In this document: positions 53,513-61,002 of the stretch, one piece after another
How positions within the stretch are numbered: the first letter of the stretch is position 1
Layout: the number at the start of each line of letters is the position of its first letter
Assembly (NCBI RefSeq): GCF_031128465.2
Contig: NZ_CP155618.1
Coordinates: forward strand, 1,435,501 to 1,499,500
Direction: 5' to 3'
From: Mariniflexile litorale
GTDB taxonomy: Bacteria; Bacteroidota; Bacteroidia; Flavobacteriales; Flavobacteriaceae
DNA length: 64,000 bases
Notes under the pieces: model-generated
What the model was told of the DNA's origin: nothing
Database searches by the model: none
Seen by the model: only the letters and a program-made list of their open reading frames with translations
Translations under genes and position numbers: made by a program

Positions 53513-53607
53513 ACTTTGTTTCCTAATAATTCAGGAATCTAAATTTTAAAAACTAAAGTACATAAAAATTAATTTACTTTCTATTTTTAGTCTTGTCTAA
53601 AAAAATA

Positions 53608-53654: not shown

Positions 53655-54308
53655 ATGATCACATTATCTGAAGAAAATTATTTAAAAGCTATTTACCATT
53701 TAGGTAAACAAGGTGTAGCAGCTGTAAGTACTAATGCTATAGCCGAAAAGATAGAGTCTAAAGCATCTTCGGTAACCGATATGGTAAAAAAACTAGCCGA
53801 TAAAAATTTAGCGCATTACATAAAATATCAAGGAGTTAGTTTAACTAAAGATGGCCGTTTGGCTGCCGCTTTAGTGGTTAGAAAGCATAGGCTTTGGGAG
53901 GTTTTTTTAGTTGAAAAGCTCAATTTTTCTTGGGATGAGGTACATGATGTCGCAGAACAGTTAGAACATATCAAATCCTTAAAATTGGTAAATGAATTGG
54001 ATGCCTTTTTAGGATTTCCAACTCACGACCCACATGGCGATCCTATTCCGGATAAAGAAGGAAATTATGCACCAACCAAAAGTATTAACATTCTAGATAT
54101 AGAAGTTGGTGCTGAAGGTGTTTTGGCGCTTGTTAAAGATTCATCGGATGTGTTTTTAAAATATTTAAATAAAAATAATTTGGCTTTGGGCGATGTTATC
54201 AAAGTTTTAGAATTTGAACCTTTTGACGATTCGGTTACCATTCAAACTAAAAGCAAACAAATTATTATCTCTAAAGAAGTTGCTAAAAATTTATACTTAA
54301 GTCAATAA
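53655..54308 (+). CDS. DtxR/MntR-family metal-dependent repressor
   Basis: The 217-residue repressor has an N-terminal winged helix (about 3-62, EENYLKAIYHLGKQ and TDMVKKLADKNLAHY). The metal-binding dimerisation domain (about 65-140) has RKHRLWEVFLVEKLNF, VAEQLEHI and PTHDPHGDPIP. A C-terminal FeoA/SH3-like domain (about 150-217) ends KNLYLSQ. It represses iron or manganese uptake when the metal is bound. It is the first gene of a run (1-base gap, then membrane fusion protein, split FeoB) and likely controls it. Fe versus Mn preference is not decided here. Confidence 0.94.
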   Translation: MITLSEENYLKAIYHLGKQGVAAVSTNAIAEKIESKASSVTDMVKKLADKNLAHYIKYQGVSLTKDGRLAAALVVRKHRLWEVFLVEKLNFSWDEVHDVAEQLEHIKSLKLVNELDAFLGFPTHDPHGDPIPDKEGNYAPTKSINILDIEVGAEGVLALVKDSSDVFLKYLNKNNLALGDVIKVLEFEPFDDSVTIQTKSKQIIISKEVAKNLYLSQ

Positions 54309-54309
54309 T

Positions 54310-55329
54310 ATGAATTACAACCCTATACACGCACTCGTATTGTTTTTTATAATAGTGGGTGTTTTATATGTGTTATTTCGACCTACAAAAGGTTGGTTTT
54401 GGATTATATATAACAACTTTAAAAGTAACGAAAAAGTTGTTATTGAAGATATTCTAAAACAACTCTATCATTTCGAAAATTCAGGAAATAAAGTCGATAC
54501 CAAAACTTTGGTTGATGTATTAAAGTTCAATAACAATCAAATTATTGAAGTCATAAAAAAAATGACCATTAATGATTTGATTTATTTTGAATCAGACGTA
54601 CTCAAATTAACCAGTGCTGGTAGAGATTATGCACTTAGAATTGTTAGAATACATAGGCTTTGGGAGCGGTATTTAGCCGATAAAACGGGTTTTAGTAAAG
54701 AAGAATGGCACGACAGGGCAGAACTAATGGAGCATAAATTAAGTCATGATGAAACCAACACCTTGGCAGCCCATTTAGGAAACCCGAAGTTTGACCCACA
54801 TGGCGACCCCATTCCAACAAAAACAGGTAAAATGGCAAAAGTTAATGGGGTTGAATTACCCCTATTGCCCGTAAACACAGTTGGAAAAATTACGCATATT
54901 GAAGATGAGCCCGAGATAATTTACAAGCAAATTTTAGCTGAAAAAATTCATATTGGGTCGCTTATACGAATCATTGAAAATAACGCAACCCGCATCGTTT
55001 TTCTATCTGAAGGGGAAGAATTTAGATTAGCCCCCATTGTAGCTGCAAATTTAACCGTAGCAGCGATTGAAAAAGAAGTTGTTATTGAAGAGAATATTGC
55101 ACGATTATCAAGTTTGAAAGCACATGAAACATCTAAAATAATAGGTATTTCAAAAGAAAGTAGAGGAGAAAGTAGACGTCGTTTATTAGATTTAGGTTTT
55201 GTGAAAGGAGCCAGTATAAAAATAGATTTAACAAATCCTTTAGGAGATCCACATGCTTATCTTATTAAAGGAACCTCTATTGCTTTAAGGAAAGATCAAG
55301 CAGCAAAAATTCTTATTAAAAAAGATTAA
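54310..55329 (+). CDS. Membrane-anchored DtxR-like protein fused to two FeoA domains
   Basis: The 339-residue protein has an unusual order. An N-terminal transmembrane helix (about 6-24, IHALVLFFIIVGVLYVLF) is followed by a DtxR-type winged-helix and dimerisation region (about 40-150; RIHRLWERYLADKTG, AELMEHKLSHDE, FDPHGDPIPT). Two FeoA/SH3-like domains then follow (about 165-250 and 265-339, the latter with RRRLLDLGFVKGASI). It may bind DNA only if cleaved or membrane-proximal, or may have lost DNA binding and act as a FeoA partner of the split FeoB that follows after 3 bases. It starts one base after the DtxR stop. Confidence 0.85.
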   Translation: MNYNPIHALVLFFIIVGVLYVLFRPTKGWFWIIYNNFKSNEKVVIEDILKQLYHFENSGNKVDTKTLVDVLKFNNNQIIEVIKKMTINDLIYFESDVLKLTSAGRDYALRIVRIHRLWERYLADKTGFSKEEWHDRAELMEHKLSHDETNTLAAHLGNPKFDPHGDPIPTKTGKMAKVNGVELPLLPVNTVGKITHIEDEPEIIYKQILAEKIHIGSLIRIIENNATRIVFLSEGEEFRLAPIVAANLTVAAIEKEVVIEENIARLSSLKAHETSKIIGISKESRGESRRRLLDLGFVKGASIKIDLTNPLGDPHAYLIKGTSIALRKDQAAKILIKKD

Positions 55330-55332
55330 CTT

Positions 55333-56097
55333 ATGGAAACTAAAGTAAAAAGTGCCTGCGAAACCTGTCCTCAATTTAATGCTGATGGCTTAAAAAAGTT
55401 GGGTATTAATACAACGAATGTCGATTTTGTTGTGGCATTAGCAGGTAACCCCAATACAGGAAAAAGCACCGTATTTAATGCGTTAACAGGTTTACGTCAA
55501 CATACTGGTAATTGGCCAGGGAAAACGGTAACAAGAGCCGAAGGAGGTTTTGAATACAACAATCAAAAGTTCAAGTTGGTCGATTTACCAGGCACGTATT
55601 CATTGCTTTCAACCTCCGATGATGAAGCTGCAGCCCGTGATTTTATCCTTTTCGGAAAACCAAATGTTACCGTTATTGTTGCCGATGCGAATAGACTAGA
55701 GCGCAATTTAAATTTAGTTCTTCAAATCTTAGAAATCACAGATAAAGCTGTTTTGTGTTTGAATTTAATGGACGAAGCCAAACGTAACCATATAACCATA
55801 GACGAGAGAGTTTTAGCGCGCGATTTAGGCATTCCTGTAGTTGCTACAAGCGCCAGATTTAGTGAAGGTATTCCTGAATTAATTCATACAATTAGTGAAA
55901 TAGCTAACGGCCATATTATTTGTAAACCACACCGTATTAAAAATGTACCAAGTAATATTGAAAATGCAGTTAAAACCCTTTCTGCTGAAATTGAAAAAGA
56001 ATTTCCAAACATTCCAAATAGCAGATGGATTGCTTTCAGATTATTAGAAGGCGATACACAAATTATTAATGCTCTAAAATCAGGTGAATTACTTTAA
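55333..56097 (+). CDS. feoB-N: FeoB GTPase (N-terminal) half of split ferrous iron transporter
   Basis: The 254-residue protein contains only the FeoB G domain and start of the GDI region. An N-terminal CETC pair (about residues 9-12) may bind metal. G1 is [16 protein letters not shown] (about 38-53), G3 is DLPGTYSLL (about 81-89) and G4 is NLMDEAKR (about 138-145). [13 protein letters not shown] near the end is the normal link to the permease. The stop TAA at 56095 is followed three codons later by an in-frame ATG of the permease half. FeoB is normally one chain. Confidence 0.92.
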
Positions 56098-56106
56098 AAC
56101 ATTACC

Positions 56107-57525
56107 ATGGAAAATAAAAATATAGATCACATATTAGAGCTTTCAAACGAGTTGCGTTGGCAAATTGGCGACGATTTCCATGATAATTTAACAGAAGGTA
56201 TTTATGCTGATGCCGCTCAAATAGTTGCCGATACTGTACAGGTTGATAATCAAAAAAAACGTTTCCGGCTAGACAGACAAATAGATAAAATAGTAACGAG
56301 TAAAACCTTTGGATTTCCTATCATGTTTTTAATCTTAGCTACCGTGCTATGGTTGACTATTATTGGAGCCAATTACCCATCATCATTATTAGCAGAGTTA
56401 TTATTAGATAATGTTCATCCCATTTTAAAAAGTGGTGCAGCAGCTATCAACATGCCTTGGTGGCTTGACGGTTTTTTAATTGATGGCGTCTATTTAGCCG
56501 TGGCTTGGGTTATAGCTGTTATGCTACCTCCTATGGCCATATTTTTTCCCATGTTTACACTTTTAGAAGATTTTGGTTATTTACCTCGTGTTGCTTTTAA
56601 TTTAGATAGTCTGTTTAGAAAATCTGGCGCCCATGGGAAACAAGCTTTAACCATGACTATGGGTTTTGGCTGTAATGCAGCAGGTGTAGTGGCTACCCGT
56701 ATCATAGACAGTCCCAGAGAACGCTTAATTGCTATTATTACTAATAACTTTTCACTTTGTAATGGCCGTTGGCCTACTCAAATTTTAATTGCAACCATAT
56801 TTATAGGTGCCGTAGTACCATCTGCTTTTTCAAGTTTAATATCCTTATTGGCGGTTATTGGCATAGCAGTTTTAGGAATGGCTTTTATGTTTGGCACATC
56901 GTGGGCATTATCAAAAACGCTATTAAAAGGGCAGGTGTCTACTTTTAATTTAGAATTACCCCCTTACCGTCCCCCACGCTTTTGGAAAACCATATACACC
57001 TCGTTAATTGATAGAACCATGATTGTTTTATGGCGTGCTATTGTATTTGCTGCACCAGCAGGTGCTGTAATTTGGTTGATTTCAAACATTTACATTGGCA
57101 ATGAAAGTGTTGCTGCCTGGACTATAGATTCATTAGATGGTTTTGGATTCTTATTAGGCCTAAACGGCGTTATTTTGTTAGCCTATATTGTAGCCATTCC
57201 TGCTAATGAAATAGTTATTCCTACCATATTAATGCTTACAGTGTTAGTAACAGGAATGGCTGGAGGTGCAGGTGCTGGTGTGATGTTTGAATTGGATTCA
57301 GCAAATGCCACAGGTGATATTTTAAGAGCTGGAGGTTGGACGTTGTTAACAGCCATTAACCTGATGCTTTTTAGTTTGTTGCATAACCCATGTAGTACAA
57401 CCATTTACACCATTTACAAAGAAACTAAAAGTGTTAAATGGACTGTGTTTGCTTCGATTATGCCTGTAATACTAGGTTTTATAGTCACTTTTTTAGTAGC
57501 TCAAATTTGGCGAATTATTTTTTAG
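56107..57525 (+). CDS. feoB-C: FeoB permease (C-terminal) half of split ferrous iron transporter
   Basis: The 472-residue membrane protein carries the FeoB transmembrane core with two Gate (nucleoside-recognition-like) domains and about nine helices from residue 65. [20 protein letters not shown] and [20 protein letters not shown] contain the conserved Cys of the ion path. A second Gate block includes [17 protein letters not shown]. Residues 1-60 ([20 protein letters not shown]) equal the end of the GDI region. It lies in the same reading frame as the GTPase half, separated by one stop and three codons. Confidence 0.92.
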
Positions 57526-58530: not shown

Positions 58531-60630
58531 CTATTTCAAAAATTGATAAGCTATTAAAGCAACAACATAAGCAAAAGCACTCATAATTACTAATTGTAAG
58601 GTAGGCCATTTCCAACTATTTGTTTCCCGTTTTACAACCGCAAGCGTACTCATACATTGCATGGCAAAAGCATAAAAAAGCAGCAACGAAATTCCTGAGG
58701 CAAAGTTAAATAAAGGGCCTCCTAGAATGGGATTTACTTCGGCAGCCATTCTGTTTTTTATAGTGGCTTCATCATCATTCCCCACACTGTAAATGGTTGC
58801 CAGAGTTCCAACAAATACCTCACGGGCAGCAAAACTACTTACAATAGCAATACCTATTTTCCAATCGTAACCCAGAGGTCTAATAATAGGTTCAATTGCG
58901 TGACCTGTAATACCTATATATGAATGCTCTAATTTATATGAGGAAATGTGTTGACTTATTTCTTCCTCAGATAACTGTTGTGAAGCGTATTGTGTTTTAA
59001 CAATAGTTTCGGCATTATTAAAATCATCACCTGGGCCATACGATGCTAAAAACCAAAGAATAATAGATATAGCTAGAATGATTTTACCTGCACCAAACAC
59101 AAATGATTTTGTTTTTTCTAATACAGTCAACGCTACATTTTTAAGCATGGGTAGCTTATAGTTTGGCATTTCAACCACAAAAAATGTTTTGCTTTTTATC
59201 TTTAAAACCTTATTTAAAATATGGGCAGAAAGCACAGCTGTAGCGAAACCTAAAAAGTATAAAAGCATTAAAGTTAAAGCTTGATAACCCAATCCTAAAA
59301 AGCGCCCTTCGGGAATTATTAATGATATAATAATTAAGTAAACAGGTAATCTGGCAGAACAGGTTGTAAAAGGTGTAACTAAAATAGTGATTAAACGTTC
59401 TTTCCAACTTTCAATATTCCGAGTTGCCATAATTGCAGGAATAGCACAGGCAGTACCAGATATTAAGGGCACAACACTTTTTCCACTCAAACCGAAACGA
59501 CGCATAATGCGATCCATTAAAAATACCACACGACTCATGTAGCCACTTTCTTCAAGTACCGAAATAAATAAGAATAAAAAGGCGATTTGTGGAATAAAAA
59601 TAACAATCCCACCAAGCCCTGGGATAATACCTTCTGCCAATAAATCAGTAAAAGCACCTTGGGGCAATTGGTTTTTAGTCCATTCGCTTAAAAAAGCAAA
59701 AGTACTATCTATAAAATCCATTGGTACACTGGACCAATCATAAATAGCTTGGAAAATGGTTAGTAAAATGACAAAGAAAATAACATAGCCCCAAACCTTA
59801 TGAGTTAAAATACGGTCTAATTTAGAACGTAAATCTTTGGCTTGAGAAATATCAATAGTTTGTCCTTCTTTAAGCACATGGTTTATAAACTGGTAACGTT
59901 TTATGGTTTCTTTTTGCTGAAGTCGTTTTAAATCGGCTTTACTTTTAGTTTTAAAATTAGCAACAGCGTCAATCTCTTTTCGATCTGTTTTTCCAAAATT
60001 AACATCTTGAGTTATAACAAGCCATAATTTATATAAAAGTTGGTTTGGGAATGCTTTTTGTAAATTTTCAAAGTATTCTTTATCAATATCTGAAGCTTTA
60101 ATACATGGCGTTACAGAGACTTCTTTATAATTAGCTATAAGCTGTTTTAAATTGTCAATACCTTCTTTTTTTCTGGTACTAATTAAAGCGATTTTAGTTT
60201 GAAGTTGCGTTTCTAAATATTCTATATCTAAAGAAATGCCCTTATAACGCATTCTATCAGACATATTAATGACTAATAAAGTGGGGATTTCTAAATCTTT
60301 AATTTGAGTAAAAAGTAATAGGTTTCGTTTTAAATTTTCAACATCGGTTACTACAACAGCAATATCTGGAAAATCTTTATCATTTTTATTTAAAAGCAAT
60401 TCTATGACTACACTTTCATCTAAGGACGATGCGTTTAAACTATAAGTACCTGGTAAATCTATAATATGTGCCTTAACACCACGTGGTAGTTTGCAAATAC
60501 CTTCTTTTTTTTCAACAGTAATACCAGGATAATTTCCAACTTTTTGGTTTAAGCCGGTTAGTGCATTAAAAACAGAGGTTTTTCCTGTGTTGGGATTACC
60601 TATTAAGGCTACATTTATTTGCTTACTCAT
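58531..60630 (-). CDS. feoB: Ferrous iron transport protein B (canonical, full length)
   Basis: The 699-residue ferrous iron permease has an N-terminal GTPase (G1 GNPNTGKTSVFNALTG about residues 11-26, G3 [11 protein letters not shown]4 NMSDRMRY) and two Gate domains in the membrane part (from about residue 275). The conserved Cys segment is LISGTACAIPAIMATRN. AREVFVGTLATIYSVG is a second-Gate motif. Its ATG overlaps the feoA stop by four bases (60627-60630). It is distinct in sequence and organisation from the split FeoB encoded a few hundred bases away on the opposite strand. Confidence 0.96.
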   Translation of the reverse strand: MSKQINVALIGNPNTGKTSVFNALTGLNQKVGNYPGITVEKKEGICKLPRGVKAHIIDLPGTYSLNASSLDESVVIELLLNKNDKDFPDIAVVVTDVENLKRNLLLFTQIKDLEIPTLLVINMSDRMRYKGISLDIEYLETQLQTKIALISTRKKEGIDNLKQLIANYKEVSVTPCIKASDIDKEYFENLQKAFPNQLLYKLWLVITQDVNFGKTDRKEIDAVANFKTKSKADLKRLQQKETIKRYQFINHVLKEGQTIDISQAKDLRSKLDRILTHKVWGYVIFFVILLTIFQAIYDWSSVPMDFIDSTFAFLSEWTKNQLPQGAFTDLLAEGIIPGLGGIVIFIPQIAFLFLFISVLEESGYMSRVVFLMDRIMRRFGLSGKSVVPLISGTACAIPAIMATRNIESWKERLITILVTPFTTCSARLPVYLIIISLIIPEGRFLGLGYQALTLMLLYFLGFATAVLSAHILNKVLKIKSKTFFVVEMPNYKLPMLKNVALTVLEKTKSFVFGAGKIILAISIILWFLASYGPGDDFNNAETIVKTQYASQQLSEEEISQHISSYKLEHSYIGITGHAIEPIIRPLGYDWKIGIAIVSSFAAREVFVGTLATIYSVGNDDEATIKNRMAAEVNPILGGPLFNFASGISLLLFYAFAMQCMSTLAVVKRETNSWKWPTLQLVIMSAFAYVVALIAYQFLK

Positions 60631-60857
60631 ATTTCTTTTTCAATTAAAATATGACTAGCAGTTTCCTTTCTAATTGCTAAATGGGTGCCGTTAATATTTA
60701 AATACATAGGGTCTTTAAATGGTGCCAATTGAACAAGTTCTACCAAATTACCAGGTAAACAGCCCATTTCTAAAAGTTTTAATGGAACATGAATGGACGA
60801 TACATCTACGATAATAGCGCGTTCTCCTCGTTTTAATTCGGCTAATGTGTTTTGCAA
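60627..60857 (-). CDS. feoA: Ferrous iron transport protein A
   Basis: The 76-residue SH3-like protein modulates FeoB. GERAIIVDVSSIHVPLKLLEMGCLPGNLVELVQ spans the core, where LLEMGCLPG is the FeoA motif. HLAIRKETASHILIEKEI ends the domain. Its stop overlaps the feoB start (ATGA), so the two are translationally coupled, with the 45-residue Cys-rich protein as the third gene. The sequence resembles the C-terminal FeoA domain of the membrane fusion protein across the island. Confidence 0.94.
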   Translation of the reverse strand: MQNTLAELKRGERAIIVDVSSIHVPLKLLEMGCLPGNLVELVQLAPFKDPMYLNINGTHLAIRKETASHILIEKEI

Positions 60858-61002
60858 ACTTATTTAGATTGATTTTAAAGAAGCAAAAGTAAGGGAAAAG
60901 TTTTAGAGTTACAAAGTTTCAGAGATGCAAAGTTTTTTTAAGGGAGTTTTGAGTTGCAGCCAACGTTTTTACAAGGTTTTTCTAACAGCTAAACAACAAA
61001 TC

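Follow-up and report, generated by a model that had tools for sequence, protein, structure and literature searches.

A membrane-anchored DtxR-like protein fused to FeoA and encoded with a split FeoB in Mariniflexile litorale, a candidate post-translational metal sensor

In Mariniflexile litorale (Flavobacteriaceae), the gene of a membrane-anchored DtxR-like protein lies between that of a soluble DtxR/MntR-type repressor and those of a FeoB transporter split into two halves. This raises the question of what a second DtxR-like protein does in such an operon, and whether it acts on DNA or on the transporter. The answer bears on the role of FeoA and on the regulation of FeoB transport by its cargo. 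We analyzed a window of 64,000 nucleotides (the whole stretch from position 1,435,501 to 1,499,500 of contig NZ_CP155618.1, forward strand, RefSeq assembly GCF_031128465.2). A sequence-only reading had described a chain in the order transmembrane (TM) helix, DtxR winged helix and metal-binding domain, FeoA, FeoA, which it considered unusual, and had suggested a metal sensor directly attached to the transporter, gating FeoB by cytoplasmic metal rather than by transcription.

Layout of the locus and spread of the arrangement

The operon comprises the following features, with coordinates given in the window.

53584-53603, no strand assigned: palindromic DtxR box TTTTTAGTCTTGTCTAAAAA preceding dtxR, probably the operator of the operon
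53655-54308, + strand: gene of the soluble DtxR/MntR-type repressor, 217 aa (Pfam Fe_dep_repress, E = 3.5e-14; Fe_dep_repr_C, E = 3.6e-30), with a conserved recognition helix
54310-55329, + strand: gene of the anchored DtxR-like putative sensor fused to FeoA, 339 aa, ATG start
55333-56097, + strand: FeoB GTPase half, 254 aa, with an N-terminal CxxC (Pfam FeoB_N, E = 8.4e-59)
56107-57525, + strand: FeoB membrane half, 472 aa, with the gate motif GFGCNAAG (Pfam Gate and FeoB_C)

The gaps between the four genes are 1, 3 and 9 bases, in this order, so that the position first read for the anchored protein, between a DtxR repressor and a split FeoB with gaps of 1 to 3 bases, was correct. A DtxR metal domain is encoded in this genome only by the anchored protein gene and by its soluble neighbour, whose winged helix is intact and which is the probable transcriptional regulator of the operon.

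Two further observations concern the surroundings. The FeoB membrane half is followed by a gene for an outer-membrane-type protein of the Phenol_MetA_deg family (PF13557; 57573-58334, + strand). Eight other loci (L054, L056, L073, L074, L076, L081, L084 and L097) have distant homologues of it close to the same operon, and in view of this recurrence the protein may be a linked outer-membrane metal channel. A canonical FeoB (58531-60630, - strand) with its own stand-alone FeoA (about 60627-60865, - strand) stands back to back with the split system, and the genome thus has two Feo-type importers side by side.

Far from being unusual, the arrangement is common, full-length copies of the anchored protein being present in 41 of the 395 genomes sampled from the phylum. 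Among its close relatives are proteins of Mariniflexile (86-91%), Formosa, Tamlana, Pontimicrobium and several metagenome-assembled genomes. In all complete loci among about 58 examined, the gene lies directly 5' of FeoB, and this FeoB is split except for the fused FeoB of loci L089 and L092. The family of the split-FeoB membrane half is sharply delimited: 45/395 genomes have a match above 600 bits, to which a single fragment at the edge of a contig is added, and the next full match reaches 151 bits. The anchored protein is present in 41 of these 45 genomes.

Domains, metal sites and the DNA-binding region

Five segments were distinguished in the anchored protein.

54322-54378, + strand: TM helix, residues 5-23, then P-x-[KR]-G and a basic linker; orientation N-out/C-in
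54439-54609, + strand: winged helix in degenerate form, residues 44-100, with its fold kept but neither recognition helix (residues 73-86) nor wing conserved
54610-54819, + strand: DtxR metal-binding/dimerisation domain, residues 101-170; ligands H115, E119, H134, E138, E141, H142, D162 and H164
54847-55068, + strand: DtxR-type SH3-like domain, residues 180-253, with invariant H196-I-E198-D199-E200-P201
55099-55326, + strand: bona fide FeoA domain, residues 264-339

Pfam searches with the 339-aa protein detected Fe_dep_repr_C over residues 101-170 (E = 1.9e-25) and FeoA over residues 265-337 (E = 2e-17). The AlphaFold2 model (mean pLDDT 87, pTM 0.77) consists of the TM helix 5-23, a winged helix, the metal/dimer domain and two SH3/FeoA barrels. 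Its residues 44-253 superpose on Mn-bound MntR 5zr6 (Z 21.7, 2.0 Å), which, together with the Fe_dep_repr_C domain and its ligands, places the protein in the DtxR/MntR family by fold and metal core. Residues 264-339 match the Bacteroides fragilis FeoA 7r7b (Z 13.3, 38% identity). In a tree of small barrels the second barrel joins the true FeoAs, apart from DtxR SH3 domains (support 96), and the first barrel falls outside the FeoAs. The domain order that had been read from the sequence is therefore retained, but with one FeoA instead of two; the first 'FeoA' (about residues 180-253) was rejected as such and is an ordinary DtxR/MntR SH3-like domain. Likewise, the winged helix of that order is present as a fold in the model, whereas its DNA-binding signature is not, the N-terminal DtxR DNA-binding Pfam model scoring E = 0.09 (below the cut-off) against 3.5e-14 in the soluble DtxR.

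The membrane anchor is a constant property of the family. A strongly hydrophobic N-terminal helix was found in 59/59 orthologues and in 0/52 paired soluble DtxRs, and the charge pattern corresponds to an N-out topology with a cytoplasmic C-terminal side in 57/57 orthologues. Since the start codon is the sole ATG before residue 85 of the open reading frame, no ATG-initiated soluble isoform would carry the whole DtxR core.

The DtxR metal ligands had appeared preserved in the single sequence, and this holds for the whole family: H115, E119, H134, E141, H142, H196, E198, D199 and E200 are invariant in 57/57 orthologues, and E138 (55 E, 2 D) and D47 (53 D, 4 N), which lies in the first helix and adds to the ligands of the metal domain, are nearly so. 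According to the published ligand lists (PMC4805248, PMC10317159), the primary site made of D47, E138, E141 and H142 (D/E/E/H) is of the MntR type; iron-type DtxR proteins use Met/Cys at this site (PMC4805248, PMC10317159). D199 aligns with D160 of ScaR, an SH3-domain ligand of the secondary Mn site (PMC4805248).

Mn(II) is a likelier candidate than Fe(II) for the metal sensed, as suggested by the MntR-type ligands and by the link of the related PgMntR to the Mn transporter FB2 (PMC4805248). The rarity of strong MntH in genomes with the anchored protein was counted in the same direction. Strong Nramp/MntH matches (best E < 1e-100, a cut-off chosen after seeing the table) occur in 2/41 genomes with the anchored protein versus approximately 145/354 without it (Fisher p = 7e-7, from a hand count ignoring kinship) and, within four families, in 2/35 with it versus 9/11 without it among the genomes listed. 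The canonical FeoA-FeoB pair of the window would cover Fe(II).

A protein that is anchored next to a transporter and has several conserved metal sites might also be a metal chaperone or acceptor, the DtxR sites taking over the ion that leaves FeoB and handing it on without any gating; indeed, each monomer of PgMntR binds three Mn(II) ions very tightly (PMC4805248). However, sites of sensor affinity in a DtxR geometry suit sensing better than transfer, and the fusion to FeoA points to the GTPase, so that we regard this explanation as very unlikely.

The DNA-binding region has evolved quite differently from the metal sites. The metal domain is equally conserved in both groups: its pairwise identity is 0.64 in the anchored proteins versus 0.60 in the paired soluble DtxRs, and that of the recognition helix (73-86) is 0.26 versus 0.54 in the soluble DtxRs of the same loci. 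The latter contrast holds within three clades or families (0.51 versus 0.86 in Flavobacteriaceae), which argues that the drift of this helix does not merely reflect lineage-specific operators. The mean net charge of the winged helix is -0.7 in the anchored proteins versus +2.3 in the soluble DtxRs, and is lower in the anchored protein for 41 of 50 pairs (Wilcoxon p = 5e-7). The conserved recognition helix and basic wing of a DtxR repressor are thus lacking, and with a TM helix in 59/59 orthologues the protein is apparently not a soluble DNA-binding protein of the PgMntR type either. Judged from sequence, it has apparently lost its ability to bind DNA; what has gone is one consensus signature, and its loss may still be compatible with DNA binding of another kind.

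The distribution of the operator was examined across loci. A TTWRG-N4/6-CYWAA box lies upstream of the soluble dtxR in 50/52 loci (about 0.5 expected per spacing from shuffled sequences). The M. litorale genome contains two perfect matches, one being the box at 53584-53603; the other was dropped as an operator, being inside a coding gene. Seven loci have the anchored protein without an adjacent soluble dtxR, and a box upstream of their operon was found in 0-1 of them: six have none, and in the seventh there is a weak candidate that lies far off and differs in spacing. Among five genomes checked that lack an adjacent soluble dtxR, four hold no other DtxR-family gene and keep the anchored protein with FeoB. 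Four loci have a stand-alone feoA in its place and a soluble dtxR nearby; in three of them an exact copy of the box lies upstream of feoA, and in the remaining one the copy has a single mismatch. This pattern indicates that the box tracks the soluble DtxR, not the anchored protein.

These data bear on a repressor held at the membrane like that of YtgC-YtgR, the DtxR part of which would be cut free to repress the operon. There are precedents for it: cleavage of a permease-DtxR fusion releases YtgR, which binds DNA in the presence of Fe(II) (PMC5599777), and the related soluble PgMntR binds the promoter of its own operon. Against it stand the drift of the recognition helix and wing beside invariant metal sites, also within single families, the negative mean net charge of the DNA-binding domain, the lack of an operator where the anchored protein is the only DtxR-family gene, and the presence of a soluble DtxR in the operon. 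A cleaved repressor therefore appears quite improbable.

The FeoA domain, the FeoB partner and the proposed mechanism

The strongest hint that the C-terminal domain acts as the FeoA of the split FeoB comes from the four split-FeoB genomes (of 45) without the anchored protein. Each of them has a stand-alone FeoA of 77-81 aa in exactly the same slot 5' of the GTPase half. Like a FeoA, the C-terminal domain is a FeoA-type barrel encoded together with FeoB. The FeoA of B. fragilis binds the GTPase of FeoB in a nucleotide-dependent manner, stabilises its GTP form and slows GTP hydrolysis (PMC8980893). Of the five residues named there as its hydrophobic clamp, four are kept as hydrophobic residues in the anchored protein (L292, L295, I324 and L326), and the fifth position is S/Q288.

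Given that FeoB is split in nearly all these operons and that the FeoA domain could bind the GTPase half, the protein might serve as a constitutive adaptor, its TM helix tethering the detached GTPase to the membrane half and its DtxR part acting as a dimeriser without sensing. However, four split FeoBs pair with a soluble stand-alone FeoA, the fused FeoBs of L089 and L092 still come with the anchored protein, and all metal ligands, including the HIEDEP of the SH3-like domain, are invariant, which a mere scaffold would not need. We therefore hold such an adaptor to be improbable.

Instead, we consider it fairly probable that the protein works as a FeoA with a membrane anchor and a metal sensor, likely for Mn(II), and regulates FeoB post-translationally. 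The proposal of a transporter-attached, non-transcriptional sensor is supported in so far as invariant ligands coexist with a drifting recognition helix, the operator follows the soluble DtxR, the gene constantly adjoins the split FeoB and a stand-alone FeoA replaces it in its slot in relatives. In the mechanism that we propose, the DtxR core (metal sites, dimer domain and SH3-like domain) would read the cytoplasmic divalent metal, most likely Mn(II), and the C-terminal FeoA domain would dock on the FeoB GTPase, which is encoded by a gene of its own. The binding of metal, together with the clamping of the SH3-like domain that it entails, would reposition FeoA on the GTPase, FeoA being moved or immobilised relative to the membrane-bound dimer. 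Such a shift is suggested by the invariant ligand motif of the SH3-like domain and by the short linker that joins FeoA to it; in IdeR, the SH3 domain is locked onto the core once metal occupies the ancillary site (PMC10317159). Through the contact of FeoA with the GTPase, metal occupancy would set the GTPase and gate activities of FeoB, most plausibly slowing import. This sign appears the likelier one by analogy with CorA and ModABC, for which feedback inhibition by the substrate is described in a review (PMC10710835). The anchored protein would thus provide a fast post-translational feedback, and the soluble DtxR a slower transcriptional one via the box at 53584-53603.

Some features of the FeoB halves deserve mention. 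The short N-terminal extension of the GTPase half with its CxxC (55333-55420) is kept in 52/55 orthologues and is missing in three of the four relatives with a stand-alone FeoA (L093-L095). The gate motif GFGCNAAG is found in nearly all split-FeoB membrane halves, and the canonical FeoB of the window has GTACAIPAIMAT at this place; this difference may mark a different metal specificity. The FeoB membrane half had no sequence match among solved structures.

Relation to known systems and to ABC permease fusions

The nearest characterised relative of the anchored protein is PgMntR (PG1044) of Porphyromonas gingivalis, a DtxR-family protein with twin C-terminal FeoA domains encoded in the operon of the Mn transporter FB2 (PMC4805248). 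The two share the order DtxR, SH3, FeoA, the HxxDE motif of the SH3 domain and the genetic link to a FeoB, that of PgMntR being an Mn transporter. With a constant offset of 30, the putative metal positions H85, E89, H104, D132, H134, H166, D169 and E170 of PgMntR, as listed in PMC4805248, correspond to H115, E119, H134, D162, H164, H196, D199 and E200; PgMntR has C108 where the anchored protein has E138. Unlike the anchored protein, PgMntR begins about 28 residues later and has no TM helix. In gel shifts it bound the promoter of its own operon, which counts against the explanation that we favour, although the binding was seen at 700-1000 nM and also without metal (PMC4805248). The anchored protein differs here in its degenerated recognition helix, the separate soluble DtxR of its operon and its split FeoB. 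No soluble twin-FeoA form of the PgMntR type was seen in the selected sampled genomes.

In B. fragilis FeoAB, FeoA is likewise built in as a permanent partner of the GTPase (PMC8980893), but it is fused to FeoB itself, with neither metal sensor nor membrane anchor. The proposed logic, a cytoplasmic sensor of the substrate turning the importer down, resembles that of CorA, MgtE, ModABC and MetNI as presented in the review (PMC10710835); there is no homology with these systems, the sensor here being a DtxR-family repressor core set on FeoA. In the consulted parts of this 2023 review, FeoC-dependent proteolysis is the only regulation given for FeoB (PMC10710835).

The profile of the anchored protein family also gave matches in ABC-3 metal permeases that carry a DtxR core at their C-terminus. 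Of 17 fusions of this kind, all keep the H/E/H/E/H ligands, and their recognition helix is as variable as that of the anchored protein (identity 0.23). An HMM built from residues 1-43 alone, comprising the TM helix, P-x-[KR]-G and basic linker, had its best match at the last permease TM helix in 17/17 fusions. Four of them scored between E = 2e-6 and 4e-5 and most others more weakly; 16/17 surpassed the best decoy (E = 0.46) among reversed and FeoBC sequences. The junction of TM helix, P-x-[KR]-G, basic linker and DtxR core is common to the anchored protein, to YtgC-YtgR of Chlamydia and to the Bacteroidota ABC-3 fusions (such as L101 and L103), the latter also having, as here, kept metal ligands and a poorly conserved winged helix. 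Unlike these permease fusions, the anchored protein has a single TM helix, no ABC-3 domain and a C-terminal FeoA serving FeoB, and unlike YtgR it would neither be cut off nor bind DNA.

A tree of DtxR cores (86 columns) separates the FeoA-linked, permease-fused and soluble groups, without giving their sister order. From these comparisons the two tethered forms likely share an origin, and the common junction suggests a descent of the FeoB-linked sensor from an ABC-permease fusion. The permease fusions keep a positive charge, and DNA binding is therefore less clearly excluded for them. A more general reading, which we advance only tentatively, is that DtxR cores devoid of DNA binding form a membrane-tethered allosteric metal-sensing gate, used on ABC-3 permeases through their last TM helix and on FeoB through FeoA. 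If true, this would define a non-transcriptional branch of the DtxR family, a repressor family recycled as a transporter part, and the first known substrate-sensing regulator of a FeoB-type transporter.

Soluble twin-barrel proteins (PgMntR, 2016) and the permease-DtxR fusions of Chlamydia were already known. What appears to be new is the anchored, seemingly non-DNA-binding form that takes the place of FeoA, and a candidate sensor module common to two classes of transporters; we found no description of either in the open-licence papers searched. With FeoA naturally fused to a metal sensor whose chemistry is known, and with relatives providing natural controls (stand-alone FeoA, fused FeoB, loss of the soluble DtxR), the role of FeoA and the metal feedback on FeoB can be tested directly.

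Two observations concern the permeases themselves. Locus L101 (748-2229) encodes an ABC-3 permease followed by a DtxR core and an SH3/FeoA-like barrel, the permease counterpart of the three-domain sensor. In loci L149-L158, many ABC-3 metal permeases (370-405 aa) have at their C-terminus a short wHTH-like tail that lacks the DtxR metal domain; this may be the permease-DtxR fusion at a more advanced stage of erosion.
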